A stretch of DNA of 64,000 nt from Alloascoidea africana. Taxonomy: Eukaryota > Ascomycota > Alloascoideomycetes > Alloascoideales > Alloascoideaceae. Below the pieces are notes generated by a model. It was not told the DNA's origin. It was given only the letters and a program-made list of their open reading frames with translations, and did not search any database. Location: positions 248,001 to 312,000 of the forward strand of contig JAKTTT010000016.1 in NCBI GenBank assembly GCA_030581615.1, in the 5' to 3' direction. Shown here in pieces: positions 1,581 to 50,500 of this stretch. Position 1 is the first letter of the stretch, and each line of letters begins with the position of its first letter. Both the position numbers and the translations under genes were made by a program.

Positions 1581-4500
1581 TTGATTGGTATTATTATTAT
1601 TATTATTGGTGTTGTTTTAAAGAATGACTATTGTTAAATGAGTGAAAGAACGTGTGAGAGGAAGCTAGTTCTTCTCTATGGGCTCAAAATGAGAGGACAG
1701 TATAACAACCTTTCTGATTTGTTTTTGAGAGGATCTGAACTACGGGACGTCAAGTGCTTTATATATAGACAATACACGACGAGACGGTCTGTGTGTTTGA
1801 GTGAGTCTCAGGTTTTGATAACATGAGGTGAGCGTACTGAAATTGCCTAATGCGCAAGATTTATGAACCGATTCATGATCGTGATTAGGATTAGGATTAT
1901 GATTTAGGATTATGATCCAGAGGAATATAACCGGTCAAATAAGCAAAAGCAATTGATTGGCGTATCATTCTAAGACATTGCACGTTTGAGATAAACATCG
2001 TCGTCATTTATAATCGCTAATTCGGAACCGGAGTCAGAATTGGGAAATCGTCAAATTGGATTTGCAAAAGCTTATTATTGTTTTTTTTTTGTTCCTTTTT
2101 TGCTATCTTGTTCTGTCTGTCACTTCTGTATTTCCCTTCCCTTGGGCCACACAATCTTTTCTAATCACGGAGCTCACCTCTCGTTATCATTTTGAGGAGA
2201 ATGTTCAATTTTCCTCAACATGTCTCTCTCTATCTTTCCCACCCTTCACAAGTATGTTTCCCACTCACGAGACACGACCCAAATTAGAGAGACAAGTGAA
2301 TCTCCTTACAAAACAAAAAACCCACAGGCAAATTATCCTTTCTGCCCCCCCTGATATATTGTAAATCCTCATGAATCACAAGTTTCGTGTATGCCTCCTC
2401 TAACGTTTATACCGTTTAAAGTTGCATAAAAACCGCGATGAAGCTTAATGATGAACTTACATAAATACACGTAAATATACATCATGTCTTCCCCCAACAT
2501 GTGTTTTGTCTCGTTTTTGTTTCTTCCTCATTAGTTTCATCAAGTCTTGGAATATTTCAAACATTTGTCTTTTATTTCTTCATTTCCACATCAAATTTGA
2601 ACACTCCTGTGCTTGAGTTCAAAACCACACCATGTTCTTTCTTCTTACCTCTCTTTATTGTGAATGCATCGGCATGCAAGGGAACAATCCCGTAAAATGT
2701 AGTCTTAGGTACGAAAATCCGCCTTGAGCTTGCCGGTCCGGTTAAATTGACGGGGAATTAACCATAAATCATCCAAACGACAACTGTGCGCCGCCAAGAC
2801 ATGATGAGTATATACTTTGATTTTCCCAAGGGGAATGTATCCTCCCCAGCCTAATTTCCCAAGCCTATTCTGTGTTATCCCACATTTTACAAGCCTCACC
2901 ATCACACTTCGCGGACCTCTCGTCTCTTTCTCGATATAGGTGTGCTCCCACCAAAAGCAAGATTTTGCCCCTACGATTCCCTATTAGAAACTAAAAGACA
3001 CTTCATTTTTCCCTTAAATTTTATGTAAATCTTGTGTTATTTTAAAAGATGAATGGGTGGGGCCATGCTATGATGTTTACCCAAAAGGAGTTTTAGCCCT
3101 ATTAACTAGTTGAAGGCTAATGATAAAAGATCCAAAGGCGTTTTCTTGTTCCTTAAGATCTTTGACTTGTTCAGTTTCTCGGCAAATCAAAAAGAAACGA
3201 AAAAATAAGAATCTAAGGGGTATCTTTCATCAGGGTTATCTAGAATAGATTTGGTTTGAATCGCCTGCATTACTTAAAAGATGGTATCAAGCCAATCCGA
3301 GCGCTTTCAATCTACTATCTGCTCGTAGTAAGGGGAAACCAGGGGGAAGAGCAACCAAAGAAAAGGCGGTGACCCTGACCCTGTCCTGCCTTGAACGATG
3401 TGTGTGAAAGAAAAAGTCAACGAATGATGTGTGTGATAGAAGATCGTGTGTGTGCTTAAACGTTGTTCCTGTGATCTAAACTTGGAATGCTCGGCGAGAT
3501 GGGCGATGAATTGCCTTGGCTAGCTTAAATAAAAACGGAGCTAGTGTAAACCTAAGATTTGCTTTCCAATCTCTCAACCAACCACCGAAAAAAAAAAGCA
3601 GTACAAGAAAGAAAAAATGTAGACACAAAAAAATTTAAAAAGAAGGGCTTTTCGTTTTTTCTATTATTAGCTCCCGAATGATAACGAGGTCGAAGGTAGG
3701 GCTCTTGAAAAAGTGCACAAAGTTCCCAACAACGAACAAACTATCCTATGGATCTTCCTTGGCGGGACAAGAGGACAAAAAGAGATGAAAAACCTGGACC
3801 AGGCCATGGCTGTTTTGTTGTTCCAGGTTGGACTATGCGATATATACAGTATGTTCTGCTACTCTGCCAAAAGCCAAAATCTCACTAGTGCCAATTTCGA
3901 TGCCCATCAACATGAAACTCGTAACATCCCACTGAGCGGTTCTATTCTCCCAACAGATGATCCGGTACTGTCTTTTTCATTTTCATGAAACAATAGACGA
4001 GAAATTGTTTTGTTTCTAAAATTATCACTCAGAGATTCTGTTTCACTGCGTTCAGAGTGGTGGTTGTTCGTTTCACGTTGTTTCTCTTCGGAGACCTTTC
4101 TAGCCCTGCATGTCCATTATCTCTCCATCCCTCCCCAAGTTCCAGTTAGTCTGCTCACTTTGTTCCTTCTCCAAGTTTCATGCATAGCGTCAGACGGGAT
4201 AATCCTTTCTGTCCGTGGAGATACTTCAGAATGCAAAGTTTACAATGCAGTCCCGCAACAAAGAGTTTTTCGTAATGCATTCGGGCCTGTCAGACTCATT
4301 GTCCGCCAAGCGATAGGCCTTTGATAGATCCCTTCTTTCAAAAGATAATACAATATGGCTGGCTCATCATGTCTGTGGCATTCCGCCATAGACGCACGAA
4401 TAAAAAAGAAGGTTATTTTTAAATGCTAATTATAGTCAACAAAATTCCCTTGCCTTTATTGTTCTCAGGGTACAAATAACTCTTCGGACTATACCTCTAT

Positions 4501-7500
4501 ATTCTTCCTCCGACGATCTGATGTGCCTATCTGGACCCAAAGAAAAGATGAAACTCCCGAGAATGATTGAGAGTGCCCAAATTTTTGCTTATTCATTGGT
4601 TTCCTTCAACAATGTTTAATGTGTCAGTAGTGAATTTTTGTGCTTGGTTTGTGCTTGGCTCACACCGCAGGGTTTGAGACAATCGAAAAACCACTCACGA
4701 TAAGGCAAAACATATACTCAAGAGAAGGCGTCAAAAATAGAAATAAAGCACAAGAGAAGAAAAAAAAAAATTCAAACATAACAACAAAACACAAATCACT
4801 CAATACAATTGCGTCTAGGCCTTGCTTGTCAATTATAGATTACTTTTGCTTTAGACAAAGTATCAAATGGTTCTCGTTAGAGTGCAAGGTAAGGCAAGGT
4901 AAAAATAGAGAAAGACATTCCAACCTTGAAATGTGAGTGTTTTGGTTTTAACGTTTGCCTCTATATCCGGCTTTCTCTTTTGGGTAGATTGATGAAAGAG
5001 AACAATACTCTGCCTCCTCTTCGGGGAAAAAAAGAAAATGAATGATGGCGTTTTTACTCAATTCTTGTTGTGTCAATTGATACTAGTTGAAGCAGATCAT
5101 AGTTCTTTTCCCCCGTGCATTGGCTATTTGAATTCCTCGCTCAACAATGATTCTGTTGAGAGTTGATTCAATTACTTTGGGGTATGCGATGATGGGGTAA
5201 AAAATGTATTGAATCTAGGGATGTACAATATTGTGTACCAACATACGAATTTGATTCGCAACAGATTAGCTATAACACTTAATCTAGTGACTTGCGGCTT
5301 TCCATTCACCCTTTAACTACAATAGCAATGCTCAACAACAATCGAATTGTCGTTATTCGCATCAAAAAAGCAAGGCTTTCTTTTCATTTCGGTACATCAT
5401 TTAGCACGGCATGGCCACTTCTTTTCTTCCCCATCTTTAAAACTTTCTTGAATCAACTCAAATAGTAGAAGCACTTTATTCTACGATTACAAATTTTCAA
5501 GTACTGCCGTGGCTGCGATGAGTTTAAAATCGTGTATTATATAGATGCAATGAAAAGTCTTTTCATGCTAAATTAAGTCAAGGGCGTATCCCATTAAATG
5601 AAAGAAATTAATCTGTATAGAATCAGGCTTTGGAGTCATGAACATGCCCCAGATGCCAAATTTCAAAAGGCATTTCTGTCATCTACAGTAAATTTTTCAG
5701 TTTTTTTGTAAGACTGACGATCGTCACTGAAAACTTCTCTCCAGCTCTGAATTGATCATCATATATCATAGTAGAAACACACTACTCTATATTTGAATGA
5801 AAAAAGAATCAGATTTTTCACAAAAGGTAAGCTAAATGATATAATTTATTTGTTATAAGTTAGGCGTTTCTCCAGTAAAAGCAGCTAGTGTGAAAAATAG
5901 GTGCTAATAACAAATACCAACTTATCAATTCTCGTCTTTGAACAATGGGTGATACTGGTAACAACCATCCAAAATGGCCAAATTAACGCGTCCTAGACTA
6001 GGACTGTTTCTTTACAATGACAGAAAAGAGACAAATCGGTAATGAGATGGAATGATAATCACCAGGCATTTTTCATTTCGTGTGGTTATATGTAAAGATC
6101 TATGCTGTTTGCGGTCTCGATCTCGGCAGAGATTTCCAAAATTATAGATTAGCAGCAAATAGTTTATATGCTCTCCTCCTCCGAGGTTAGTACCACGATA
6201 GGCAAAAAGAAGCATTTACAAACCATTATGAGGTTCCAAATGGGGTTAAGATTGCTACAGCCCATCGGAAATCGGTTATGCTTATCCACTCAAAGCTAAC
6301 AGCTGAAGATGACTTATTGTTGAATGTATGCCACTTTATGTCGCCTCTTTTTCATCCCCCGAAACTCAAAATTTCATTACAGGATTTCCACTCTACAGGT
6401 GATAAATCTTTATTTACGCACCTGAAAATAGATCAAAACTTGGCTTTTCAAAGATTAATGATAAATTAAAAACAATTTAAATGACTGAGAAAAACAAGTA
6501 GGAAGTTCTTTTTCTGATATCTGTGGAGCATGGCGAACGGAAAATAAAGTATGTTCTCAAGTCTTGATGCACGCTTATTCACATCTACACCTGTCTCCAG
6601 GTTTATGATCTGTCAGAATTAGCAACTTGAAAGTTCTAACGTATTCTTCCAGGCTCCTTCTTTGCAAGATGTTCCTTGAAGTTCTTAATGTCAGACAGGC
6701 TTATTTTAGCATTACGTGCTAAGATTCATAAGAACAATAAATCTGGCATCTTAGTTTTGGGGTTTGCGCTGTAAAACTGCTTATCTACTCTTTTATAGCG
6801 TCATCGCCGTTATGCGTTTTTAAGGAGAAGCGGGTAACTGTGATCATCTGCTCATCGCCTTGACACATTAAAGCAAACCTCATATCTGTCTGTCGGTGAA
6901 AGGTAAAAGTAATCGATGTAAGAACATGGTAAAACGTGGGTTGGGACTGACCAGGAAACACTCAAACTTGCCAATGAACAACACATGTAGAGTATGATTT
7001 TACGATTTTTTTGAGAGCTTGGTCTGGGGCACACATTCCCAAAGGACCACAAGTTAGTTATATAGAATATTGCTCCCCGATTTTTATTTTTATTTCGTTG
7101 CTCTTAGATTTCCATAGAAATAGTGTTCTGGACTTCAATAATCTCTAAAACATGAATCTGCAACCTACACTCCAAAAGCTACAGGTTTTTGATATAACTA
7201 AAAGTAACGTACTCCTTTCCCCGGAAAAATCAACATTCAGCGGATAACCTACGCCAGTGAATCAAACCATAAAGTTGATCTCGTGTAGCATATACCGGTT
7301 AGCTACGCCAGCGGCTATATATTTTAGGCGATAACTAAAATAAGTGAAACCAGAGAATTTGAAAAACCAAAGTTGAGGCAATCCGTTTTTCGTAACAAGA
7401 GCAATTATGGACAGAGTTGGAGCAATTGTGATTTCACCTGATCAGTTTCAAAAACTAAGACATAATTTCAACATGAAAGTTACCTTTTATGAAATTAATC

Positions 7501-10500
7501 CGGAGCTCGTTTTGACAAGAAAACTAGAAAAACAAAACTTTTTAGTGCGTTCTAGCTCCAACGCGTCCACATAAGCGCTGACTGTTTTTCGCCAGCAGAG
7601 CAGTAATATTCCATTTTCTTTATGTTTACCACCTACGACCAAATTTCTACTCACCCACTCCCCACCTCTGGGGTATATAGTCAGCTAGTCACTTTTATTT
7701 TGCTCAGTAAACTTTCAATAAAAGCTCATAATACGAAAAAACTATTGTTTTGACAAAAGGAGTGGGTTCAAAATATTTCAGCTAAGCCACTAGTTCGCGT
7801 TGGTAACGAGCAATCTTAAATGTCTAAGAATGAGGATGTGAGCAATCGGGCATGTCCAGAAAAAGCGGAGGTGGACTTTTCGAGCACTTCATTAAATCTT
7901 CTTGGACCACAAGCTACTGTTTTCTTTACTATAACTACTACAAAAGGCATCGACTTGGGAGAATAGGCATAGCTCCAAGGTATAACCGCCATTAGTTAGG
8001 TATTTTAAAGCTTTTGATTAAAGTTACACCTACTGAAAATCATGCATGAATCCACCAAGAAACAGGAATCAGAAGTTCTTCTACGCCGTGCTATACTTCT
8101 CCGTAACAATGTAGGAGCTAATAGCCATTAGACAATAATCAAAAGGTCTTGGAAAAAATCATCCAATCTTTTGGCAGTACCAATAGTTTTACTAAGCATC
8201 AGCTTGTATTCGGTATATACTCTTCAAATACGTCATATATGTCTTAAAACACAGTAGGCCTGTTTGTTTTCTTAAAAGAGACAGTTCTTGAAAGTCACAG
8301 GTGGCACTTAAGAATAGACAAGAGACTGTAAGGATTACACTTTTGTCTCTAGCTTTGAATACATACAAAGCATGGGAGAGATGGCAGGCTCTGATTCAAA
8401 CACAAATAACAGTAGCTGAGATTCGTAGTATTATTAGCAGGTTACACAAGGAACCTTTCTTTTTCTCAGTATGGAAAGAACGGGTAATATTAATGGTGAC
8501 AAGGGCCAGGCATACAAAGTATACTGGTTAAGAACAAGTGGTCTTTGACTGGGGCAGTTAAAGTTAACTTTTTATGGTGTGCCAAAGAAAACACGCTAGC
8601 TCCTCCACCAATATGTGGAGGACGACCCTTACTGAACAATTCTTACTTAGGTTGAGATCAAGATCTGTTTATTTACACAATGGAGCAAAGTAAACTAGAT
8701 TTCGTTGATAGAAATGTAAATCATCTACAACTTGATAAATATAGCCATGTTTAGCGCCGTGTATGCTGCAGAGAACCACCGAAGAAAGGAAGAGAACGGC
8801 GAAATGAACTGATTTACTTGGGAGGCCAAAAATCAAACCTCCTTACGGAAACATAAGCTGCAAATCGGCTTCTCCCAGAAAATAAAGTTCTCATCCCAAC
8901 CAGTCTCTAGATTTCATGAATTTTCAGTTTATATCATAAGAGACACGCATCTTCGGGTTCGGAAAGGCTGTAAAAATCATCAGGAGAAACAGGATGCCAA
9001 ATCATAACTGTGCCTGTTGACCAAAATCTTGAGTTTAGTATCTGCAGGGATGTCTCTATTGCTCTAGAGCAGGTTCCAGAAATGCTCTATATGCCTGCAT
9101 CTACTCTTTTCAAGAACGGGCTTACTATTTTTGACCGTCCGATCAGCAACCACTAAGCCGAACAATCAAAACAAAATGTGCTTTATCTCTTTCTCCGTAA
9201 AGCAGGGAAAGATGATGATAGCCTGGAATAGAAAAGGAAGGGGCAAACACTTTTAGATATTGAGCGCGCGCTTGCAATTTTTTTTCACGCTGAGCTGCGA
9301 TGTATGTGTCTGGCTGTTTTACGCCAGAGCTCGAAACAATTAGATTGAGAGGTACGGTGTAACTAGATTGAAAGGCCATTAATGTCCCGAAAAGGGAAGC
9401 GCAGGGAAATACGAGAGAGTGAGATAAGCCTTTTCTTGAATGTCGAGTTGAACTTTCAACACTCAAAGCCTCGTAAAAATTGAGTGTGGCTAAACGTAAC
9501 CAGCTGAAAGCAGTTGTTTATGGTGCTGTTGAATATGCAAGGTCGCAATAGTTTCTACATATTTTTGTAAATGGAAGACGGGACGCATATAGCTAACAGG
9601 AAGCCTATATTTTGGCTTTTCGATTTCCAAGTTGCTTTATTAATCCTGGACTAGCCGTTTCCTGTAGCACTGAAGCCTATTCTAAAAATGGCAAGGACGC
9701 GATACCCTCTGCACATCGTCTCTCTAGGACGGGTAAACCCCCTCTGTTTCTATTTTTTCCTTTCTTTTTACAGTCTCATACCATCAGGTTTATCACTTTG
9801 TTCGTAACTTAGAAAACCCACAGAAGAGCTGAGGCCATAGACTTAAAGCGGTTGGACGAGTGATGCGTTTGGCTGAATTGGCATCATCATTCTATAATGT
9901 AGCCCACTGTAAACAATACAAGAGAAAAAAAATGTCAAGAATTCAGTTGTCGGGAATGACTGAATCATGGCGATCTTGCATATCTGAGCTTGCTCAATGA
10001 AATGTCGTATATAGAGTCGCCATAGAGTAGGAATGGCCCCTAGAACACCTAATGCCGGGTTGTCCAAGACCGCGATTGACTCAAGACGCGAAACTCTAAA
10101 TCTTCAATTCTGAACTTTCTCATCCTGCTCAAAAGCTCACATTACTAAATCACTTCTTACTGTGCCAACTATTTATAGGATCGATTAAGAAGTAGATACT
10201 GACTATTTTCATTAATATATATGTAAATATATCAATAACTATTCATAGGCCAGGCTGGCGTCAAGAATAAAGACAGAACGTTTTTGCAATTGAGATAAAC
10301 TTATTCCGAAAAGAGTAACACCCAATTTCCAAAGACAGAATCAAAACGCTTTCTTAATTAACACGGTTGATATGGGTCCGCATATGAGTGCTAAGGATGT
10401 GGCTAAGACTCCATCATGCTTTCCTAGAACTAGTAAACCAGATCTTTTTTATTTGCTTCGTTCCCTGTCTCTCGAGATTTTTCAAGATCTCTTCTTACTG

Positions 10501-10632
10501 TCTTCTTCCTTGAGCATTGTCGAGATCTAGTGGTCTTTCCTTCATTTTCCAAATTTTTTGACCGGCCTAGATCTCATCACTTTCTCTTAAGATAGGTAGA
10601 GGTTCGCTTGCATTTAGTCTTTTTCCATCGTC
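1581..10632. other. 9 kb intergenic region without convincing genes
   Basis: This is the space between the divergent starts of the yapsin-like gene and the G1 cyclin. The open frames here are all short (about 110 codons at most), carry no recognisable motif and show no plausible splice-linked continuation. I saw no tRNA-like fold, transposon coding sequence or terminal repeat. Small features are a GGATTA-like run near 1881-1920, GTGTGT-rich patches near 3400-3460, and ACGCGT words at 5986 and 7561. It may hold long promoters, non-coding transcripts or a centromere; none of these can be shown from sequence alone. Confidence 0.7.
10087..10093 (+). promoter_or_regulatory. SCB-like site (CGCGAAA) upstream of the G1 cyclin
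   Basis: CGCGAAA lies about 540 bp before the cyclin ATG. CRCGAAA is the core bound by SBF (Swi4-Swi6) at G1 cyclin promoters in Saccharomyces. A single 7-bp match in AT-rich DNA is weak evidence. The location is what makes it worth listing. Confidence 0.3.
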
Positions 10633-12399: not shown

Positions 12400-15300
12400 T
12401 GACACTTATATCTGACTTTGTTTTTTATGATTATGACTATGATAAATGAAAAAGATTCTCGATCATACCCTTTGTAGCTGGACTGCAAGGCAACGGAATT
12501 TCCTTCTGTCAGGTTTATTTTTGTTTCTATATTACTATCCAAGTTTTGATTGTTTTAGGGTGAGAGTACTTGTACTTTAATACTTATGATGAAAAGAAAC
12601 TGTTTTTGTGTAGGCTCCTTGATTGAGGCTAAGGAGAACAAACGCTAAATCCAATCACCCCTTGTGTTACTCTCCTTGTGTTAGGAAAACAGAAAGGCCA
12701 AAAATCTAACATCTGGAGCCGACATAAAAAGATGATTGATCTAATTGTTTTGAATGGCTGTCAATGGAACAATGTTGTAATTTCGGAGATGTAAGATTAT
12801 TTAGTCTTACCATGAGATCTTATTTCTGAGAAGGCTTCTAGAAGCAACAGAGTAGCGCCTGTTTTAGCTTGGGTTGATTCAACATTGACTGCAAAAGTGA
12901 GACATCTCCGCAAAGGGTGTAAAATAAGAGATATAAGCAATTATTGGTGGCTTTCAAGACTTTGACCACAAAATTCCTTTAAGACTGGATGCAGCCAAAA
13001 GTTCAAGCTCTGTTCCTCTATCCGAAGTAGTGGCATTAAAGAGATGGACATCTTTTAGTGTCCCAGTAAGATTACTTCCTTCATTGAGGTATAAAAAGGA
13101 CGGACACGCAAGACTTTAAATTGTTAGTGACATGCTAATGTACGAAGGATGATCTTGTAAAGTGCGATTCTTTAAGAATAGAATCTTCTTACTTAGTTTT
13201 GTGCCTCGAATTTTACATATTCCATATTCCATATTCCATATTTCTATGTTGATTTTTATTTTTCCATAACTCAGGATTGTACTTTTCGTAAAACTTTGAG
13301 CATTAGTTTGTGCATCTTTATCGAAAAGTGGAATTGAGACATCACTAATGATGTTAGTAGAAAAATAGTATCTAAAGGCAGCTTGGGAGTCCTCTGATTC
13401 TAATAAAAAGCAGCCTTTTGCTACCAGAAAAAAATAGATGGTACCAAGTAATGTGTTAACCCTACAAATATTGCTACAAATGAATGGAAAAGGTTGGAAA
13501 CGCCCAAGAGAAAAAGAGAACCAATCTCAACAAAAAAATGAATGAGGAAATAACAAAAAAGTGATTTTGTATCCCCTGGATTGGGCCAATGTTATGGAAA
13601 ATCAAAAATTCAAAGGGTAATAAACACACGGCAATAATTTCTCCGCATAGTCGTTAGAATATATCGTTTTGTTAGTTTTTTCCCTACAGACTAAGGTCAA
13701 ACTGGTGCGAGCCTTAAAATATAGGAAAAGGAAGAAAAACTAAGGCGCTGCACAAAAGCATAAGCGGGGCCCCATTGCCACACGCTGTAAGGAGCAATAT
13801 GGTAGTAAACTGATTCTGGTGATTTGAAATGCGGGATAGGAAAGAGAAAGAGAAACACAGCAGTAGTCACAGGTTGTTTGTCTGCTATACCCGATACTGC
13901 TCAATGTATGGCAGAGCCGAGGTCTTGGAGTTCGATTCTCCACGGCAGCTTCGTCTCGACATCTTTATCAACCTTATATTATCAAATTTTTTAATTATAT
14001 TTTTATTTACTTGGTTTGGTTTGGTTTTCACTGCCAGAAAGAGCCTCATTCTTGCATTTGCTTTTTGTTCTTGACAACTCAATTCCCCTTAATGTGATTC
14101 ACCGACAAAAGAACCACCCTCCACATCGCTTCAATACTCAACAATAATTTGAACCAATTATAGAAACACTATTTGATGTTAGTCTCGCCAGAATTTCCAG
14201 ACATTTCTACCCCTTTTATAATTTCGGGGAAGAGTGTCAGTTTTGAACAACCACCAGATTGTCACAATTCCTAAGCTACCTGACTATTTGTCTTTTTGAC
14301 CCAGTAGACCCAGAGTATTCTTTAAATTAAGAACTTCCCCTTGCTTTATGCGTCTTCTTGGCCCTTTGGCGCTTGCAAGATCTCTCATTTTCTATGAAAA
14401 GTGATCTGTCCTTAGCACCCAGGAAAGATATTTCATGTATAAAAAAATGAACTCCTTTAATGGTCTTGTCAATGAACGTATAGTTGGTGTTGGAGAGCAG
14501 CTCTGATATCAGGAAATTCGATGTTTATAGAACTTGTGATGGCATCTGTAGTGTCATATTTATGACCTCTCGTAGCCATCAATCACTGATATTCAATACA
14601 CTAGCCCTTTACTTGACCAGCAGTATTCCTATTAAAAGGCTACATCCAGTCACATACTCAGACTATTTATTCTCAGTGGACTTCATTCCACGAGTGTGTG
14701 GTTCACTCATCTGACGATGGGCCATATCATCAACACCAGAAAGCCATGGGAAAAATACTCTGCCATAGAGGTCTAAACTGAACTTGAGTATAAACTCTCT
14801 CCCCACTAAGATAAATTTCCACAAAATGAGTGTGTGTCGGCGGGTGAGGGTTATCAATTCCTCCTGTCTCTTATTATAGTGGGACTAACAGAGCTGATTT
14901 GAGTAGCATTTCAAATGCTGAGTTTTGGATCTTGCTTCATATTTTAAAGAACAAAAAGAATTTTGACCTTTGCTGTGTGAAAAGACAAGCCTAGTGACTC
15001 GAGACATGTTCCTTTCCGTCCTTTGATTTTGAACCTCCAACTTTGTGAAAAATATCTGAAACTGTTCGTTAACACCTTTATATAGGAATCACAATTTTCT
15101 GAAACTCCGAATTTGACCAGATTTGGAGGAAACATATGTACTTCTGATTAAAGCACATTGGAGCTTTGAATGCACAGCCAAATAGTCTATTTTGTATATA
15201 ATAAGCTAAGTACTTTTGAAAGCCTAATAGAAACATTTGTGTTTTTTTGCTTACTTTGGGGGATAGTAACATTTCTTCAGTTTTGTCTTATATTGTTTTT

Positions 15301-15412
15301 GGAGAAGAGGGAGAAGGGGAAGTGCAAAGAGAACAAGCGCTTTTCAACTGTTGCGTTTATTACTTTTTTGCATCCATTTGCCATGATCATGTATTTATGA
15401 ACTGTCTATATT
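12400..15412. other. 3 kb intergenic region, nothing recognised
   Basis: This lies between the cyclin stop and the 3' end of the left member of the inverted gene pair. It contains only short unrelated frames. A 'TTCCATA' triplication is visible near 13219-13242. Near 13931 there is a tRNA B-box-like T-arm (stem TGGAG/CTCCA, loop TTCGATT) without a matching acceptor stem. Confidence 0.6.
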
Positions 15413-16105
15413 TCATTTACAATTTGCTCGTTTAATAGTTTTCCAGATGTTTTTGTGTTTGTACCTGAGAACGTCTCCACTTCCTCTGGATTGCTTTCGA
15501 TTCTCTGTAGAGCTGATAAAGGTAGCGGGGTTCAATAAATTGGGTTTGTAAAATCTGAATATCCTTCGCTTTCTCTTTCTAGGTGCTGGATTTGGTGCAA
15601 GACCTTTGGGTTGGGGATCTTCCACACCGTCAGAAAATGCTTGTGAAGATTTTTCTGCCAAAGGGGCAGGAGAAACAACAGGGGACTCAAAATTCGCCGC
15701 TTGAGAAAGTTTTAGTAAATAGTTGCTAAAGTCAGAGATTACGAGGGGGATAATCAGAGTCTTGGCTCTGTTTGTGCCCTCACAGGACATAAACTTACTG
15801 ATAGAGGAGTCTGGAGAGTTACGAATGGGGTCTGTGGTCGCGCTGGCATGGGGCAAGAGCGAAGGAAAGTTCGATCCATAGTGTCTGCTGTTTCCCACAT
15901 CAGAGCGTATCTGTGATGGACTTTCAAAAGCAGTTGAAAGGACGACCTCCAAAAAAGGAAGACGGTTTGGATAAGTTGAACTGAACACTATCGGAGACGC
16001 TCCCGACAGCGCAGGGCATTTTGATGCCAGAGAGGCAAAGCTGGGAAGAGACACTGAAGGGGACGAGGTGGCTGTGGATACTGACACTGGGAATGAAGAT
16101 GACAT
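15413..16105 (-). CDS. Unrecognised protein, left member of an inverted gene pair
   Basis: Predicted 230 aa from the ATG at 16105. I do not recognise the family. The N-terminal third is Ser/Pro-rich and contains 'SPSVSLPSFASLAS', then 'PNRLPFLEVVLST'. The C-terminal part has 'SSQAFSDGVEDP' followed by a very basic run (RKRKRR) that could be a nuclear localisation signal. The same order of blocks occurs in the plus-strand protein at 17912-18511, which starts 1.8 kb away pointing the opposite way, so the two are diverged paralogues. A TATA-like GTCTATAAAA sits 95 bp upstream (16191-16200) and is mirrored in the other copy. No transmembrane segment or signal peptide is seen. It is probably a real, fast-evolving gene, since protein-level similarity is kept with the partner. 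A role in the nucleus is only a guess from the basic tail. Confidence 0.6.
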   Translation of the reverse strand: MSSSFPVSVSTATSSPSVSLPSFASLASKCPALSGASPIVFSSTYPNRLPFLEVVLSTAFESPSQIRSDVGNSRHYGSNFPSLLPHASATTDPIRNSPDSSISKFMSCEGTNRAKTLIIPLVISDFSNYLLKLSQAANFESPVVSPAPLAEKSSQAFSDGVEDPQPKGLAPNPAPRKRKRRIFRFYKPNLLNPATFISSTENRKQSRGSGDVLRYKHKNIWKTIKRANCK

Positions 16106-17911
16106 TTGTGAATAGCTTTTGAAAGTATAGTATCAATTGACGGATCTCAGATGACAGAGAAGATAAAGGGGAGAGAGGAATGGCGGAAACTTTTATAGAC
16201 TAAACTACAAAATTGACAATTTTGGTTTGGGGTGAAAACAGCGCGCTTCAACATTACAAGCCTTTAATGTTGCATGCCAATATTTTGGAAGGTTTCATTT
16301 GATTTTAGGATATATATCTTGTTTTATTGTGTCCCCTATGGGCTTGGCGGTTTGCCTGGAGAAGCTTTTGGAAGTTGGCTTTGTGTCTGGTCTGCCACCA
16401 TCACCAACAGCGACTCTTTATTGGGGCGGAGATTGGCGCTTAAAGTGGCAAAAGATTAGCCACCTTGCACACTAGGAGAAACCTTGTATTTTTTTTTGTT
16501 ATCCTGTCCTTTTTATTTAGAATCAAGGCTTCAATTGATGGAGGGTTCAGATCAACTACTTTTCGATGCTACCTGTACCTATATAGATCACAAGAAAGTT
16601 CAAAAGGCTCGTGAAGGAGAAGGAAGTCACAGCCCGATAAACACAAGACCGGAAAAAAACAGGCAGAAAACAGAACAAACATATAACAGGTTTGAGGTAT
16701 TTTTATCTGAGCTTTTTTTTTCTTTCCAAACGGTACATATGACTCTGCAGGGTCCTGTCAGTTTAAGAAGATAAAGTTCACGCGAATCAAGGTTTTCTTT
16801 CTGGTTTTGTGTAAGTTACTGATTAACAGATGATAAGACAATCAAATTTTGGAGATACTACGTGTTACCTAGCAGAAATCTGTTTAGCTCAAAATATGTG
16901 CTACTTTGTAGATGGGCACTCTCTAGCTTATGACATTTGGTCATGCATAATCGTTTTTCCTTGGTCAACATCCAGGATTAAACGCTGATTTCTAATTACT
17001 TCCAGGAAAAACAGCTGGCGCATCATATCTCTGAAAGTTCAACTTGCTTCCGCCGTGTGTATCTCACCAAAGACGCTCAAACGGTCTTGTAACAAGCAAG
17101 AGAGAGTTGAGCCATCACAAACTTGAGCGGTTGTTCTGGACACCGGATTTAACGGTATGAGACCTACCAGGGCTCTCTTACTTGATTGCAAGACAAAAGA
17201 ACAAGGCCTAAAAAGCTTATTCCACATAAGCTTTATCTCTTTAAACTGAAAGGACCCTGCAGAATCAAATGTAGCCAGACACGATGTACCGTTTGGAAAG
17301 AAAAAACACCCAGCTCAGATAAAAACACTTCAAACCTGTTAGATATTTATTCTGTTTTTTTGTTAGGGTCTGGTTGTATTTCTATCCTGATTGGTCTTTT
17401 CGTTCAGAAGCTCTTTCAGCTGTGTTGGGATCTAAATGCATGCACAAAAGTCTGCAGGTAACGACAGGACAAGAGTAGAGAATCTAAACCTCCATCAATT
17501 GACCGACATGGCCTTGTTTCTATACAGAAGAAGCAGGACAAAAAGAAAAGCTACAACCCGAACTTTTCCTCGTGTGCTAAACTACTGATCGGGGTACCCA
17601 CCTGATGCCATTTGAAGAGCTAGTCTCTTCCCAGTGTTTAGTCTGCGCTGCGATGGGACAAACAAAAAACCAAACCATACAATATAAAACAAGGGAAACT
17701 TTCTAAAATTGATTGGAACCTTACAATATATTGACAAATACAAATAAAAGTTTCTAGCGTCGAAGTGCGCTGCTTTTACCCAAAGCCAATCTCTTTGTAA
17801 TTAAGTCTATAAAAGTCTTCTTTATTCCTCTTCCCTTTTCCATTTCTCTACAAGCCCCATATTTATCAATTTCTATTATCCTTTCAAAAATTGTTCAATT
17901 TGCAACCAACA
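16106..17911. promoter_or_regulatory. Shared divergent upstream region of the inverted gene pair
   Basis: About 1.8 kb separates the two divergent ATGs. It consists of mirrored promoter arms around a central spacer of about 450 bp (roughly 16781-17228). I find no gene in it. The mirrored TATA-like boxes (16191-16200 on minus, 17805-17814 on plus) lie 95-107 bp from their ATGs. The similar spacing suggests both promoters are functional. Confidence 0.55.
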
Positions 17912-18511
17912 ATGACAAATATACCCCCTGAAACTGATCCCCCTTTGTCCCCTTCAGTGTCTCTTCCCAGCTTTGCCTCTCTGGCATCCCAATGCCCTGT
18001 TCTGGCTGGGATGCCTCCAATTCCGTTCAATTCATCTGATCAAAACCATCTTCCTCCGTTGCAGACCGTCCTTTCAACTGTTTTTGAGATACCTCAGGTT
18101 CCGTTCAATTCATCTGATCCAAACCGTCTTCCTTCGTTGCAGACTGTACTTTCAACTATTTTTGGGATGCCACCAGAGATTCCCTATGACGAGGGAAGAA
18201 TCGCTCTCTATGGACCAAATCTGTTCTTCTGCAGAGAGACCAATAGTATTATTTATTACTTTCCGGAATTTGCTACTGACAGATTCATGATCTTTGACCA
18301 CATGCACAGAGCAAATGTTCTTTTCTACCAACCCGTTAACCCAGACTTTTATATCTATCCACCAAAATTCTCTCAAGTGTTGGCGATACCTCCTGCACCT
18401 GTTTTCTCTCCAGTCCCTTTACCAGTCCCTCAACAAATCCTCACACCTGTTTCTTTATCAATCCCCTTTCCCAGTCCCTTTGCCACAACAGTCTTCACAA
18501 ACAATCTCTGA
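17912..18511 (+). CDS. Unrecognised protein, right member of an inverted gene pair
   Basis: 199 aa from the ATG at 17912. It is paralogous to the minus-strand protein at 15413-16105, sharing 'SPSVSLPSFASLAS', 'LPSLQTVLST' and 'YG.N' blocks and a 'KFSQ' block near residue 150. It contains an in-frame tandem duplication of 78 bp (18021-18098 and 18099-18176), giving two copies of a PFNSSD..LP.LQTVLST unit. The tail that matches the partner (SSQTISDDVEEP followed by KKRKRKR) lies in another frame at about 18485-18592. This copy therefore ends early relative to its partner, by a natural frame change, an unrecognised splice or a sequencing error. Imperfect copies of a CAGTCCC-containing segment 61 bp apart (18411 and 18472) could account for the frame change. 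Function unknown. Confidence 0.55.
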   Translation: MTNIPPETDPPLSPSVSLPSFASLASQCPVLAGMPPIPFNSSDQNHLPPLQTVLSTVFEIPQVPFNSSDPNRLPSLQTVLSTIFGMPPEIPYDEGRIALYGPNLFFCRETNSIIYYFPEFATDRFMIFDHMHRANVLFYQPVNPDFYIYPPKFSQVLAIPPAPVFSPVPLPVPQQILTPVSLSIPFPSPFATTVFTNNL

Positions 18512-21491
18512 CGACGTGGAAGAACCCGGTCACGAAAGCCACACACTTGAGCCAAGGTCTAAAAAGAGAAAGCGCAAAAGAGCAAGATTTTAACCCTTTC
18601 CCATCTCCCTACAATAAACAACACCACTTCTTCGCAATCTAGAACCTCTAACCGCTCTGTTGTAAGTTGAAAAATCCTCAGAAAACAGTACAGAAAGAAA
18701 CAAGCCCTTAGAGGTCGCTGAAAAAAAAATAAGCCTCTAATACACCGCAACAAGACAAACATACAATTCAAAAGAAGTTAAGAACCATCATAAAGCCAAT
18801 CTAAACCAAAAAAAAGAGTTACAGATAACAAATAAACCCAACAATTAAAGACCGTTTTCGTCCCTTTACCTCTCTACTCCCTCTTCTTTCCTTTCCTTTC
18901 CTTTCGTTTTTCTCTCTCCTTCTTCTTTGTCTGAGCAAAAACAGGACAAACTACAGTATATATGTTTTGACTTTCCAAAGGTAGCAAAAGCACACAATTT
19001 GATTACATGAAGAATTTGATTTTCTTAGACTTTTAAAATATTCATTTTTTAGTTATTATACTTTGAATCGATTTATTTTGTCTTTTGATTTAAGAACAAA
19101 CAGTTATATAGGTCAAAAGTAAATGCTTTCTCCAATCTGATCAATTTCCGAATTACAAAAAAAAAATGTTTAAAAGGGGAGCTATAGTGTCTCTGGATAT
19201 TCAAACACTTATGTAAGACATAACCACAACCAAATTCTATTTACTAATATTTGGTAACGCAATCTCCAGAATCCTTCCACATCTTTTGTAAATACAGTAT
19301 CTGGGTGTTTGGCCCGTAAGTACCACATCGCTGAATAGAGATCTAACTTTAGTCCTCCTGAATGGATGCAACAGATTGCTTCATTTCTCCAATTGTCTGC
19401 TCATTTGCTTTTTTTGTCATATTTTTGTCCTATTTGTGTCTCGAAGGGACAAAACTTTGGGGAATAGGAGACATTCTGATGCATAAAGCACTGAGTTCTA
19501 TAGCACTTTTAAACATATCAGTAAATGCTGGTGTTGAACTACATTCAACTTTATACGCTACGGCTGTTTCCAAGAGAATCAAGATTTGAATTAGTTACCA
19601 CTGAAAATATAACTAGCTTGAGATTTCCTCTCCTAAGAATGACACAAACGCTTAAATATAGAACCGCTGAGATGGTGGAACAGCTTGAAAGCATGATCTG
19701 AAATTTGTCCAGTTACAATGTCATTTTTTTTTTGGTGTAGAACGCGTGTTTCACGAAAACACATTCATAAAATTTAAGCTAATTTTTATTAGTGTTTTGA
19801 GAAATCTACGTTTGAATTTGTTTTCGACTCAAATAGATAAGAACATTAGAAAATAATTATCCTTAGGATATTTTGTTCCTCTAAATTGTTTTGCATTAGA
19901 GATGTGCAGTCTACATCAAAGAGGATGAAACAGGACCAGAACTGTATCCACAATCCACACAACCCAACCCAACCCAACCAGGCTTCGAGCTGTTCTTTAT
20001 CCTTCTTTCCAAGTACCAAGACCACCAAGCAGTCTTGGCAACGGAAAGGAAAGGATTCTCCTGACATTTGCTGAATAGAAATGCGGAATGAGGGGGAGGG
20101 GTAAAACATTCCCGAAAACTGTGGTCTTGTTTACCATTGTTTACCACCCCCTCCACCCCCACTTTCCGCATTCAATTGCATGCCGATAGCCTAGGAAAAA
20201 AATCGTAAAGGAGAATTACATTTCTCGTTATCTCCTTCTAGATTCTTGAAGAAGGGTTTGCCACTATACGCCATACACAAGGACTAGATAACTAGTTTTA
20301 GCTTAAAGTCGTTAAGACACTGTTAACAGATCTTTCTCCAAGCCGTCATCATGAACAGAGAGACTCTCAAAATGTTTAAATGTTTGTATTTTATAGGGGT
20401 TAAAAAAAGCTGCTTCCCTTCCCCCACTTACCCCGCGCCTATTGCAGAATCGGGCACACACAAAAAAAAAATAATTTACGGAAGGCGAGATCTTCTTTCT
20501 CATCTGTGCATATGGATACCTTGTTGTAGCTTTTCATTTTGATTCTAGGGGTTCTGAGTGGTGGTTGAACAAGAGATAAGATCAGGACAGCTTGTTGCGA
20601 CTTATGGAGATGGAACAGAAGATTAAGTCGGTGATGATCTAACAAGCAAGGGAGGAGAAGGTTTAGCGATACGGAACGTATAACAAAAGATTTTTTTGTC
20701 ATAAGCGCCGACTCACTGGAATTTAGATATCTCCGAGTACCGCATTTTGTTATGTGAAATTTACTAAAAAGCAAAACAAAAAGGGACAACTAGAGTTAAC
20801 CAAAAGGATGGGTGTATATTACTTGTGATTTTAAGGAGTTTGTTGACATGTTGAAAACAAAAGATTTTGATTTATTTGATTACAATGCGTGCATTTCATT
20901 CGACTTGAAGGAGTAGTCTGTATTTTGTAACCGAGGCGGCATAACTGATGATTACGAAAAAGAAAAATAAAAAGAAACTTGGATGAAAAGTCGGGGATCA
21001 ACAGATTAACCAAGATCACCCTTTCGTGAACATAAATGAACTTTTCATTATTAGTAATATGGGGTGCGAAAACAAGCCACGGCGGGATAGTAACATCAAG
21101 GGATTAAATATCGAAGATTCAATCCCGCATATGGCAAAGCCAATTGTGTACAGTTTGTTAAAGCAAAGATACTGATCGATCCATGATAGGGCGGGCATTG
21201 TGGGTACCCCGTGGCATAGCAGTCTATGTGTTATCTGCACTTTTACAAACTGCTACTTGTGAGAGTTGACTCTGGTCAAGCCGAGAGCCGTCGATGCCGA
21301 TGCCGATACCGATGTCAATGTTAATGCCAATGCCAATGTCAATGCTGATCTGTCTGTACAACTACAAATGCAATAACAGAGAAAGATGATATCACACATA
21401 AATTCGGATTACAAAGAGTGATATAAAAAGCAGGTTCGTACCTCTTTCATCAACTTTTTAACAACACATTTGTGATCTTCTCCCTGTTAAT
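18512..21491. other. 3 kb intergenic region, nothing recognised
   Basis: The first 80 bases hold the out-of-frame basic tail of the preceding paralogue. The remainder is AT-rich with a TTTCC repeat near 18885-18905, a CCCAA repeat near 19963-19980 and only short frames. The last part is the promoter of the acetate transporter, with a hexamer repeat (21286-21350) and a TATA-like ATATAAAAAG near 21422. Confidence 0.6.
21286..21350. repeat. Imperfect hexanucleotide repeat (GATGCC/AATGCC)
   Basis: About ten imperfect copies of a 6-nt unit (GATGCC, GATACC, AATGCC, AATGTC) lie about 140 bp upstream of the acetate transporter ATG. It is the first member of the tandem-repeat cluster that continues to about 34 kb. 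Confidence 0.7.
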
Positions 21492-43719: not shown

Positions 43720-44581
43720 ATGGCAGGCAATGGCCCCGACGTGTTCGGGAGGGACGCAATGTTAAACTCCAAAAAGTTAACGACTAGAGAGTACATACTT
43801 CGAATGCTTCAAATCATTTTGGCAGTGATTGCGCTCGGCCTTATAGCAAGAACTTGCTACGACTTTCCTCAGGATGGTCGTATCATTTTTGGGTATGCTA
43901 ATCTACAAACAACAGTTAAAAATGGAGAGAAATAAATGAACACTAACAAACGAACTGTGTAGCGTTATTGCTTCCGCTTTGGCCCTCGTTGTTAGCGTCT
44001 TCGCTCTTGTCTCTGGTTATACAGAACTCTCATGGAAGTATCCTGCACTGATAGCAGTTCTTGACATTCTGGCTCTTCTTGTCGTTTTTGTTGCTGGCAT
44101 AGTCCTGGCAGTTTACTTTAGGGGCTCTTGTTCCTTCACCTACACCTACCCCTCCTACTCCTACTACTCCTACTACTCCTACCGTTCTGTCACTTATACC
44201 TCTACCCCATGTAAAACTGCAAAAGGAGCATCAGCACTCTTAATCATCCTCGCCTTTTTGTTCCTTTCATCTACAATTTGGGCAATAGTCAGAACATCCT
44301 TGGCGCGCAAAGCTGCAAACACAAATATCCAAGAGCAGAATGGACAGCCTCACGACCTGGAAGAAGGCAAGTTTGGTGATATTGCTCCTAACAATCCTGC
44401 TGTTCCAGCCCCTGTTGCTGTCCCAGCACCAGAAGCTAATAAACCGGTTTACTCTCCACCAGCTGGACCTCCTCCTGCTACGGTTCCTGACACTCCCAAC
44501 TCTCCTAATGCCCCTTCTCCTTATCCTCGTCAGGAGAGCTTCCAGAATCCCAATGCTCCTAATGCACCCTATCTTCCATAG
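43720..44581 (+). CDS. MARVEL-domain (Nce102-like) membrane protein with Pro-rich tail
   Basis: Two exons, 43720-43892 and 43963-44581, give 263 aa. The intron has donor GTATGC, an ACTAAC branch and acceptor GTGTAG. Four hydrophobic segments: 'ILRMLQIILAVIALGLIA', 'VIASALALVVSVFALVSG', 'YPALIAVLDILALLVVFVAGIVLAVY' and 'GASALLIILAFLFLSSTIWAI'. A Tyr/Ser-rich loop lies between the third and fourth, as in MARVEL proteins of the Nce102/Fhn1 group that organise eisosomal plasma-membrane domains. The cytosolic tail (about 90 residues) is rich in Pro, Ala and Asn. The plus-strand gene is convergent with a paralogue at 45015-45644 that has an intron at the same place and phase. Confidence 0.85.
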
Positions 44582-45014: not shown

Positions 45015-45644
45015 TCACAAAACTTCACGCGTCGCGGTCGATTTCATATCGTCAACCTCGATGTTATCTTTGAAAGGATTTTCGGGATCTCTTCTGTTTT
45101 TTCCATGTCTACTGAGGTTGAAAGCAGAAAACAACCCAGAAAGGAAAAAGAAAGCACAACAAACGACTAGCATGGCACCTCCCGCTCTAGCGCTCACGCA
45201 ATTTTCGTCTGGCCATTTCCAAACCCATTCGTTATTGACCTTTTTGATGATACAGTCGTTGTCAGAGTATCTGATGGACACTATTCCAGCTGCTATCGAA
45301 AAGATAAAGTTGATAATGTCGAGAATAAGGATTGCAACTGGTACCAGAGACGTGCCAACAATCGTATAAATTACCGAAAACAATGCGCCAATGACCAATG
45401 CGAAAACTGCTGCAAAAATGCTGTTTATGATGAACAATTGTTAGCTTTTCTAGTCATCATTAAGGGGGGATGCAATAAAAGCAACAACATACCAGAAACC
45501 CATTCTCGAATTAGATCCATAATCGCCAATAGATTTTCCGATCAGACCCATGGCAGCAATGCTGAAGATAAAGATTAGCACTCTCAGGAACAACGCTGTC
45601 CACGAGATGCGGTTTCCAAAAGGTCCATTGGTTAAGAAGACCAT
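45015..45644 (-). CDS. MARVEL-domain (Nce102-like) membrane protein
   Basis: Two exons, 45493-45644 and 45015-45420, give 185 aa. The intron has donor GTATGT, branch CTAAC and acceptor AACAG, and sits in the same position and phase as that of the plus-strand paralogue. Four hydrophobic segments: 'LFLRVLIFIFSIAAMGLIG', 'IFAAVFALVIGALFSVIYTI', 'LVPVAILILDIINFIFSIAAGIVSI' and 'GGAMLVVCCAFFFLSGLFSAF'. The loop before segment four has a Cys pair ('DNDCIIKK...DENCVSARAG'), a MARVEL/Nce102 trait. The tail is short and charged, lacking the Pro-rich extension of the paralogue. Probably in the plasma membrane. Confidence 0.85.
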
Positions 45645-47594: not shown

Positions 47595-50500
47595 TTAGAA
47601 AAGCATCCCTGCGATTATCAAAGCTGCAAGACCACTAACCGACAATGTACCACTAACGATGTTAGCACCACCGGTATATGTTTCAATTTCGGTTGAATTG
47701 TTGAAAGCGGCTGAAGCAGAACCTGAAGAGGAGGCAGAAGGAGAAACGGAAATTGGAGAAAGAGAAGTGGTAAGAGAAGTAGCGGCAGCGGCTACGCTTG
47801 GCGATGTAACAGTAGCAGCATTTTCTTCAACCACTGTATTTTTGTCATTTTCTTTTTCGGGTGTAGATTCGGTATTGGGGCTTGAAGAAGCATTAGAAGC
47901 TTCTTGCTTAGCAACGCCGTCGTCAGTAACCTGTAGAGCTGCTCTTACAGCAGAGTCGATGGCACTGGCTGTTTCTGCAGCGCAGCTAACGACCTCTGGA
48001 ACACATGAAGTGACAGTAACCACAACAGTGGCTTCTACCGATAGGGAAGTAGCAGTAACAGTAACGACAACAAAAGTCTCTTCCCCATTGGCCTTGGTTG
48101 TTGAAACAACAGCGGCATCTGTCTTTGGCTCGGATTGACCAGTCTTATTGGGGCTGCTTGTAATTGGAGAAGTTTCAGCGTCACCAGTTGGTTCAGTCGA
48201 TGCAGTTATTGTAGCAGTCTTTTCTGCATCAGTAGATGGTGTTGTATCATCATTGGGCTTGGGAGATACCTCAGATCCAGAATCAGATCCAGAATCAGCA
48301 TCAGAATCATTAGGTTCAGACCCAGAGGAAGGCGTAGAGGTCACAGTGATAGAGTCGGTTGGCTTAGAGCCACTTGAAGTTGGAACCACGGCCAATGTTT
48401 CTCCATTCTCACCAGGGCACCATGTTGTAACTATTGTAACGATTTCATTGCTCGTTGTAACAACAGTGATAGTCTTATCGTCAGATTTGGTCAAGTATGT
48501 AGAAACATGGCAGACAGTAGTCACAATGGTTTGTGTAGTAGTTTCACTTGCAATAATGGTAGTGTATGATGGATCTTCAGTAGGTACAGATCTAGATGAT
48601 TTTGCACCTGTCTCACTGGAACCAGTAGACTCAAAACCCGTTGACTTCACTTCTGTTGACTGTGTTACAGAAGCTGATGGGCTTGTCTTGCTCACTTCAC
48701 CGCTGACAACATCACTAGAAACAGTGGTAACCACACTAGATGAGGGGCCAGTAACAGATTCAGAGTTCTCGGATGGAGAAAGACTTGAGCTGACTGAAAC
48801 AGACTTGGAAGATATATCACCAGAAGGAACGGGAACACTAGAATTGTCCTCGGTTGATTTGGCTACTGAGGATGATGGGCTAGTCTTGCTTCCCTCACCG
48901 CTTGAAACACTGCTAGAAACAATGGTAACGGCGCTTGAAGCTGGGCCAGTGACAGATCCAGATTGCTCAGATGGAGAAAGACTTGAGCTGGTCAGAGCTG
49001 ACTCAGAGGAGACATCACCGGAATGAACAGCACCAGTTGGGATCGAGACAGAAGGCAACGATTCAGATTCAGATTCAGATTTCTTGTCAGTCTCACTGCC
49101 AGTTGGGACTGATTGGGTGGATTTACCTTCATCAGGCTTAGTTTCTGGATCAGATGGACTAGTCTCACTTTCTACTCCACTGGTAACATAGCTGGAAACA
49201 ATAGTGACTGGAGCAGAAGTAATGGAAGCAGTGTGTTCAGATGGAGAATTGCTTCTACTGGAAGCGGTCGATTCGACAACAGACTCAGATGTTCTATCGC
49301 CAGTGTGAACTGCTCCAGTGGGAATAGACACTGATGGCCAGGACTGGGTTGGGAGATCGGGGAACCAGAGCGGGAATGACTTTGTGCAAGAGAACCAGTC
49401 CGAAGGTGTTTCTGTGGGGAAAGATGGGAACCATTCTCCAAAAGATTTGGTGCAAGAAAACCAATCAGAAGGAAGATCATAAGTTTTCTCTCCAGTATGA
49501 ACTGCTCCAGTGGGAATAGACACTGACGGCCACGATTGAGTTGGAAGATCGGGGAACCAGAGTGGGAATGACTTTGTGCAAGAGAACCAGTCCGAAGGTG
49601 TTTCTGTGGGGAAAGATGGGAACCATTCTCCAAAAGATTTGGTGCAAGAAAACCAATCAGAAGGAAGATCATAAGTTTTCTCTCCAGTATGAACTGCTCC
49701 AGTGGGAATAGACACTGACGGCCACGATTGAGTTGGAAGATCGGGGAACCAGAGTGGGAATGACTTTGTGCAAGAGAACCAGTCCGAAGGTGTTTCTGTG
49801 GGGAAAGATGGGAACCATTCTCCAAAAGATTTGGTGCAAGAAAACCAATCAGAAGGAAGATCATAAGTTTTCTCTCCAGTATGAACAGCACCAGTGGGAA
49901 TAGACACTGATGGCCACGATTGAGTTGGAAGATCGGGGAACCAAAGTGAAAATGATTTGGTGCAAGAGAACCAGTCTGGTGGAGCTTCTGTAGGGAAAGA
50001 TGGGAACCAGTCACCAAATGATTTGGTACAAGAAATCCAGTCAGAGGGAAGGTCTATGGACCATGTTTTGGTAGCTTGACAGTTTTCACCATCGCATCCA
50101 TTGCCCCATTCGAAACCGTTATCAAAGCCTTCATCACAGTTTTCACCATCGCATCCTTTGCCCCAGTCGTAACCGTTATCGGAGCCTTCATCACAATCTT
50201 CATCAAAATCGCCATGATCCCATTCTGAGTCGTGATTAACCGGTTCCTTATCACAGCCTTCACATCCATAACTTGAATCGAAATCGGAGCCAAAGTCGTA
50301 GTTATAATCAGATCCAAAATCAGATCCAAAATCGGAGCCAAAATCAGAATCTAAACATTTTTCTTCACCAGCGTCAAAAGTAAGAGCATCTTTGAAGCAT
50401 TCCCATCCATAACAATTATCTAGGGTCTTGGTTCCACCATTGCAATTCTCACATTCTGAGATGGAAGTGGCGACAAAAGTTGTGGGGATAATACCTGTAG

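Follow-up and report, generated by a model that had tools for sequence, protein, structure and literature searches.

A probable old head-to-head duplication of a fast-evolving gene in Alloascoidea africana, with probably unequal fates of the two copies

Described inverted gene pairs and the layout of the locus

Across nine yeast genomes, Despons et al. (2010, PMC2822764) reported that 19.0% of the tandem gene arrays consist of two genes in opposite orientation and that 11% of the arrays include relics. The Centroid genes, as described in PMC9731477, form a fast-evolving, lineage-restricted yeast family of very variable length and frequent duplication, and two of its Saccharomyces members lie inside an inverted repeat. 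The same source describes a flip/flop on Saccharomyces chromosome XIV, where an inversion is bounded by almost identical 4-kb repeats enclosing a 24-kb region. The flip/flop mating-type loci of yeasts (PMC6692504) likewise hold a segment flanked by an inverted repeat.

The locus described here lies in a window of 64,000 nucleotides from contig JAKTTT010000016.1 of Alloascoidea africana, and consists of two mirror-image arms that point apart, the left (15095-16810, minus strand) running outward from about 16810 to 15095 and the right (17193-19162, plus strand) from about 17193 to 19162, with the ends set by a softer-scoring alignment. Each arm is one transcription unit comprising an upstream region, a TATA box, an ATG, a gene and a 3′ flank. 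As in the yeast opposite-orientation arrays (PMC2822764), two adjacent similar coding sequences occupy opposite strands, with significant protein similarity and no gene in the spacer; in contrast to those arrays as described there, the upstream and downstream flanks are also homologous and the proteins belong to no named family. Compared by description, the pair also resembles the Centroid genes (PMC9731477) in being fast-evolving orphan genes within an inverted repeat. The arrangement differs from the chromosome XIV flip/flop in that its arms are 73% identical and its spacer is about 0.4 kb long. It shares with the flip/flop mating-type loci a segment flanked by an inverted repeat, whereas the arms here are strongly diverged and no mating-type domain (HMG, homeodomain or alpha-box) was matched, zero Pfam families being found at E up to 0.1 in all six frames of 12401-21491, a scan that could miss spliced or very diverged genes and that was complemented in the rest of the window by selected ORFs only.

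Outward alignment of the two sides gave a local DNA score of 335, whereas none of 50 mononucleotide shuffles exceeded 35. When the left arm was aligned with 16 stretches that span 20001-63040, both strands included, the score never rose above 33. Chance or low-complexity similarity, in favor of which nothing was found except the compositional bias of the proteins, is ruled out by these scores to the point of being negligible. Between the inner ends and the last position of the basic tail, the arms are 72.9% identical over 1189 aligned columns. The flanks beyond the genes align on their own (15523 to 15095 with 18644-19162), with a score of 104 versus a maximum of 58 in 200 shuffles that roughly preserve dinucleotides; in the left arm this part is weaker, its score exceeding all 200 of 200 shuffles. 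The duplication thus took in about 700 bp of upstream DNA and, past the genes, several hundred bp of downstream DNA. Between the arms, the central spacer (16811-17192) shows no mirror homology exceeding chance, with an inner local score of 20 versus a maximum of 30 in 200 shuffles. A scan of the whole window for inverted repeats of at least 60 nt within 6 kb returned four, all of them parts of the 15095-19162 pair, and tblastn detected no third copy of the gene in the window.

The inverted duplication that an earlier note had proposed is therefore real, and its centre, placed near 17005, was measured near 17001. The arm length of about 1.3 kb given there was too short, because homology extends beyond the genes to 15095 and 19162 and the left arm measures about 1.7 kb, the right about 2.0 kb. 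The spacer was put at about 450 bp and measures about 380-410 bp.

Judging by its genes, the surrounding window resembles part of a budding-yeast chromosome. Ten scanned ORFs include a cyclin, a GPR1/FUN34-type transporter, a CBS-domain protein, an ammonium permease, an RRM protein, a WD40 protein, an aldo/keto reductase, a GH72 glucanosyltransferase, an AP-1 mu-type adaptin and a methyltransferase. CTG stands opposite Leu at two of three aligned places in the adaptin and at 10 of 18 in the permease, and never opposite Ser, so the standard code applies. Two convergent genes at 43940-44578 (plus strand) and 45018-45440 (minus strand) have MARVEL matches below the curated cut-off (E 1.1e-4 and 9.7e-7, respectively), and their products are 25% identical (E 2e-5); they are perhaps a second, older opposite-orientation pair. 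An ORF at 47595-50660 (minus strand; 1021 codons stop to stop) is Ser/Thr-rich and resembles a surface protein, adhesin-like by look, with a 192-bp repeat in 3.9 copies (95% matches) and a 57-bp repeat in 2.2 copies; its sole Pfam match, Int_EF-hand (E 3.5e-7), has no individual stretch that passes. Two stretches of about 9 kb are gene-poor, namely 1617-10617, with one open run of 124 codons, and 12400-21491, which holds the gene pair.

A remnant of a regional centromere built on inverted repeats, or another structural element in which the ORFs are incidental, has to be weighed at this point. In some yeasts, centromeres consist of inverted repeats a few kb long (PMC12711049), the locus lies inside the 9-kb stretch 12400-21491 without a Pfam match in six frames, and GC content falls to 0.32 at 18901-19900, just outside the gene of the right arm. 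Against this, the arms are strongly diverged and carry open runs of 239 and 232 codons, and the core lacks an AT-rich trough, its GC content being 0.38-0.45 in 500-bp steps over 15401-18900. Gene-poor DNA is also not special in this window, since 1617-10617 contains only one open run of more than 120 codons. A centromeric or other structural origin is accordingly very improbable.

The two genes and their products

The left gene is an ORF of 230 amino acids at 15413-16105 (minus strand, stop included), of which residues 1-185 constitute the shared gene and the last 45 are run-on. The right gene, read from its ATG, is an ORF of 199 amino acids at 17912-18511 (plus strand). BLASTP aligned the two products with E 1e-20 and 65 of 181 residues identical, and the protein alignment score of 201 compares with a maximum of 72 in 1000 shuffles. 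With either gene as the query, tblastn recovered the partner (E 9e-19 and 4e-18), the best match elsewhere in the window having E 0.12 with the tail frame as query. The homology of the proteins asserted in the earlier note is thus significant at the protein level, and the blocks on which it drew, SPSVSLPSFASLAS and those of LPxLxxVLST type, are present in both products. A 78-bp (26-codon) in-frame tandem repeat of 1.9 copies at 18021-18168 (plus strand) is confined to the right gene; the left gene has a single copy of the unit.

The 3′ ends of the genes differ. The tail blocks, SSQAFSDGVEDP...RKRKRRIFRF in the left and SSQTISDDVEEP...KKRKRKRARF in the right, are homologous, with a score of 91 versus a maximum of 56 in 1000 shuffles. 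Mirroring of a basic KRKR-type tail, as proposed previously, therefore holds for the DNA of both arms and fails for the right product, as the right tail (18471-18593, plus strand; KKRKRKRARF, then stop) is shifted to +1 with respect to the frame of the ATG. For the same reason the right ORF ends at 18511 without the tail, and as it stands it contains one Lys in 199 residues. The two frames overlap over at least 18294-18511, and the break lies between about 18421 and 18471, in a low-complexity stretch with short runs of C and T where a base-calling error is plausible. At the tail ends, the right gene reads TTT TAA and the left TTT TAC AAA, and the left ORF extends for 45 residues because the stop is absent where the right tail has one. 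The codon score of this run-on (-0.090) falls between the intergenic mean of -0.135 and the 95% point of -0.031. With respect to frame at the tail, the left arrangement is the simpler candidate for the ancestral state. Differences between the copies thus include the +1 break before the right tail, the absence of the stop on the left and the 26-codon repeat of the right gene.

Splicing was considered for both genes. Candidate introns of the form GTATGT...CTAAC...AG occur in the window. An intron rejoining the right tail was rejected, the right gene (17912-18593) having no GT[AG]NG donor. Four loose donors occur in the left gene, among them GTAAGT at 15798 (minus strand), with downstream branch matches only of loose CTGAT- and CTGAC-type; an intron at this position was not accepted, since the right gene is open coding sequence over the corresponding stretch.

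Neither product belongs to a recognised family, in agreement with the earlier reading. Pfam gave no match below E 0.28 for the left protein, the right protein or the tail frame, and no Pfam match lies between the two genes in six frames; PDB gave none below E 0.87 for both proteins. The SPP1 holin match of the right protein (E 0.28) is sub-threshold, and the PDB match of the same protein, RfaH (E 0.87), was likewise set aside. Homologue searches covered viral, bacterial and archaeal DNA and no fungal genomes, so that the absence of relatives says little: the right protein had six pattern matches in viral contigs and the left 53 in bacterial and archaeal genome contigs, none of them confirmed. 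A text search of the literature found no mention of the peptide block. Models of both proteins were unfolded, with a mean pLDDT of 37.8 without an alignment and 40.2 with a two-row alignment. Disorder is likely, not proved, as the inputs to the models were shallow.

Both proteins are Ser/Pro-rich, and motifs of LPxΦxxΦΦS type occur twice in the left and three times in the right. The pattern was reached in none of 20000 shuffles of each protein, a result that is not a test, because the pattern was drawn up after seeing the sequences. According to PMC10163088, yeast repressors use short hydrophobic patterns, located in segments that are mostly unstructured, to contact Sin3, Cyc8 and Tup1, and the corepressor interaction domains of Mig1, Nrg1 and Yox1 described there share with the present proteins short hydrophobic patterns in segments that mostly look random in structure. 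In contrast to Mig1, Nrg1 and Yox1, the proteins here match no DNA-binding domain, and the likeness is one of kind only. From the composition, these motifs and the basic tail, a disordered nuclear protein with docking motifs for co-regulators would be the most natural guess, one that leans on short motifs noticed after the fact.

Conserved islands and possible exchange between the arms

The promoter boxes that the earlier note saw mirrored are present in both arms as the TATA-like sequence GTCTATAAAA, at 16191-16200 (minus strand) and 17805-17814 (plus strand). They lie within an identical run of 13 columns, which starts 96 and 108 bp upstream of the respective ATGs.

Perfect matches between the arms reach at most 42 bp, and the second longest measures 23 bp. 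The 42-bp run falls in the coding stretch of SPSVSLPSFASLAS (16023-16064, minus strand; 17947-17988, plus strand), is identical at synonymous sites too, and exceeds expectation by permutation (P 0.0004 from 5000 permutations, in which the maximum run had a 95% point of 27). It could represent a short, old conversion event or constraint at the DNA level. A second conserved segment is a distal upstream island at 16691-16750 (minus strand) and 17257-17334 (plus strand), 92% identical over 60 aligned columns, non-coding and about 580-650 bp upstream of the ATGs. This island could be a regulatory element. Gaps of 15 and 3 nt lie nearby, and the copies have an inward open block in common, which by eye terminates at a TAA on both sides. 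An RNA gene at the inner island was rejected: at gathering thresholds Rfam matched nothing in the window, and relaxing the limit to E 1 over 15000-19300 still gave no match.

The inverted layout, the short spacer and the 42-bp run, which could be a conversion tract, are what a recombining inverted repeat might leave, with inversion of the spacer or gene conversion between arms serving as a switch or a generator of diversity. However, the near-identical arms of an invertible repeat, such as those of the Saccharomyces chromosome XIV inversion (PMC9731477), are not present here, identity being 73% overall with a longest perfect run of 42 bp and the next of 23 bp. Frequent exchange between arms is unlikely given this identity and a single 42-bp run. 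Moreover, six-frame scans of 12401-21491 returned no Pfam domain at all, and therefore no mating-type or recombinase domain. A recombining repeat is consequently a very unlikely account of the locus.

A very improbable scheme is one in which the genes form a deliberately split pair. The left product would always carry the tail, and the right would lack it by default and acquire it through a +1 ribosome shift, the two products competing because docking motifs are common to both. The shift would occur in the frame overlap, at least 18294-18511, and short exchanges between arms, as represented by the 42-bp run, would keep the shared motif in step. The +1 shift heptamers of yeast include CTT AGG C, GCG AGT T and CTT AGT T; none of these three was found by eye in 18294-18530, which speaks against the scheme.

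Constraint, drift and the probable decay of an old duplication

The earlier note inferred selection on both copies. Over 167 aligned codons, codon positions 1, 2 and 3 differ to a similar degree (0.305, 0.341 and 0.353, respectively), and dN of 0.40 and dS of 0.58 give a dN/dS ratio of 0.69 (bootstrap range 0.47-1.03). Neutral simulations, which ignored indels and started both branches from the left (187 codons) or the right (199 codons) sequence as it is today, yielded median ratios of 0.77-0.96 from either sequence, and 5-30% of the runs were at or below 0.69, a share that varies with transition bias and divergence. Ratios for sub-blocks have wide ranges, with 1.45 for the repeat unit (2.23 against the first repeat on the right), 0.62 for the middle, and 0.64 for the tail, where the first five of 41 pairs were left out on account of their overlap with the main block. 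A ratio of 0.37 (range 0.09-1.34) was obtained for the first 25 aligned codons.

The gene frame does not stand out from other frames. Its pN/pS of 0.70-0.90 compares with 0.40-1.39 for open blocks of at least 25 codons common to both arms in other frames. Lower ratios, 0.40-0.55, come from three short blocks that read inward at the inner island and in the upstream region; no gene is claimed for them because 27-32 codons are too few. Gaps in multiples of three make up 7 of 24 in the coding part, where the tandem repeat muddles the alignment, and 6 of 27 in the 5′ flank. In one DNA alignment the coding part is 71.6% and the 5′ non-coding part 73.9% identical; aligned by codon, the coding blocks are 66.7% identical. 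Codon-usage scores were 0.054 for the left gene, -0.001 for the right gene and -0.051 for the right tail, against null 95% and 99% points of -0.031 and 0.057 and a range of -0.015 to 0.204 for known genes, but this scoring is weak, as antisense frames containing 5 and 11 stops score 0.136 and 0.074. With dN/dS inside the neutral range, no frame conspicuous and the right copy frameshifted, selection on both copies as claimed is not supported.

The open frames themselves point the other way. Both long frames stayed free of stops in 0-1.3% of paired neutral runs, and one copy alone in 1.1-12.5%, figures that have to be read with the fact that the locus was picked for its open frames. This joint openness suggests past selection, for which it is the sole evidence. 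The open runs of 239 and 232 codons also exceed the longest run (136) in about 19 kb of comparison DNA chosen as free of recognised genes, and therefore the ancestor was probably coding.

Both copies may be working, fast-evolving paralogues, with the frame break on the right an assembly error or bypassed; the amino-acid sequence would be loosely constrained because the protein is disordered, while frames, motifs and promoter are kept. The rarity of joint stop-freedom, the preserved TATA boxes, aligned ATGs and motif blocks, the low ratio of the first 25 codons (with its range reaching 1.34) and the position of the break in low-complexity sequence (18421-18471), where base-calling errors are plausible, are consistent with this reading. 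However, the overall ratio cannot be separated from neutral, indels in multiples of three are barely commoner in coding than in non-coding DNA, and the right ORF lacks the tail. Two working paralogues are thus unlikely, although this reading retains an appreciable share of the probability.

The likely explanation is that a fast-evolving yeast gene was duplicated head to head long ago and that the pair has since undergone birth-and-death decay. That a complete single-gene transcription unit was copied as an inverted tandem is shown, as are the common promoter layout and the reading frame that both copies keep across the aligned blocks. The ancestral product may have been a short nuclear protein, largely disordered, that carried two or three motifs of LPxΦxxΦΦS type, which might serve as docking sites for co-regulators, and a C-terminal basic tail that presumably acted as a nuclear-localisation signal. 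Birth and death of copies under weak constraint would have followed the duplication. The left copy would be the better candidate for a working gene, and the right may be a relic in decay, may encode a truncated form that lacks the nuclear tail, or may still work behind an assembly error. In favor of duplication and decay, promoter and coding parts diverge alike, the ratio lies within the neutral range, and the locus has a frame break and a missing stop. Against simple decay stands the openness of both long frames, which suggests more than drift, and uniform drift leaves the 42-bp run and the 92% island unexplained. The evidence on selection is best read as pointing to an ancestor that was coding, to constraint that has been weak and to copies that have probably fared unequally.

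The inverted layout, the fast divergence and the lack of a family are each ordinary, and jointly they do not make a new system. Nothing was found in support of the undescribed system for which the earlier note considered the locus a candidate; the feature it singled out is real and was mostly seen correctly, and it was over-interpreted. As the evidence stands, the locus reflects ordinary genome turnover, and the pair illustrates head-to-head copying of a whole transcription unit, followed by drift at similar rates in promoter and coding sequence. If both genes are in fact maintained, they would represent an orphan family of disordered proteins in which the sequence is nearly free while the frame and short motifs are held.
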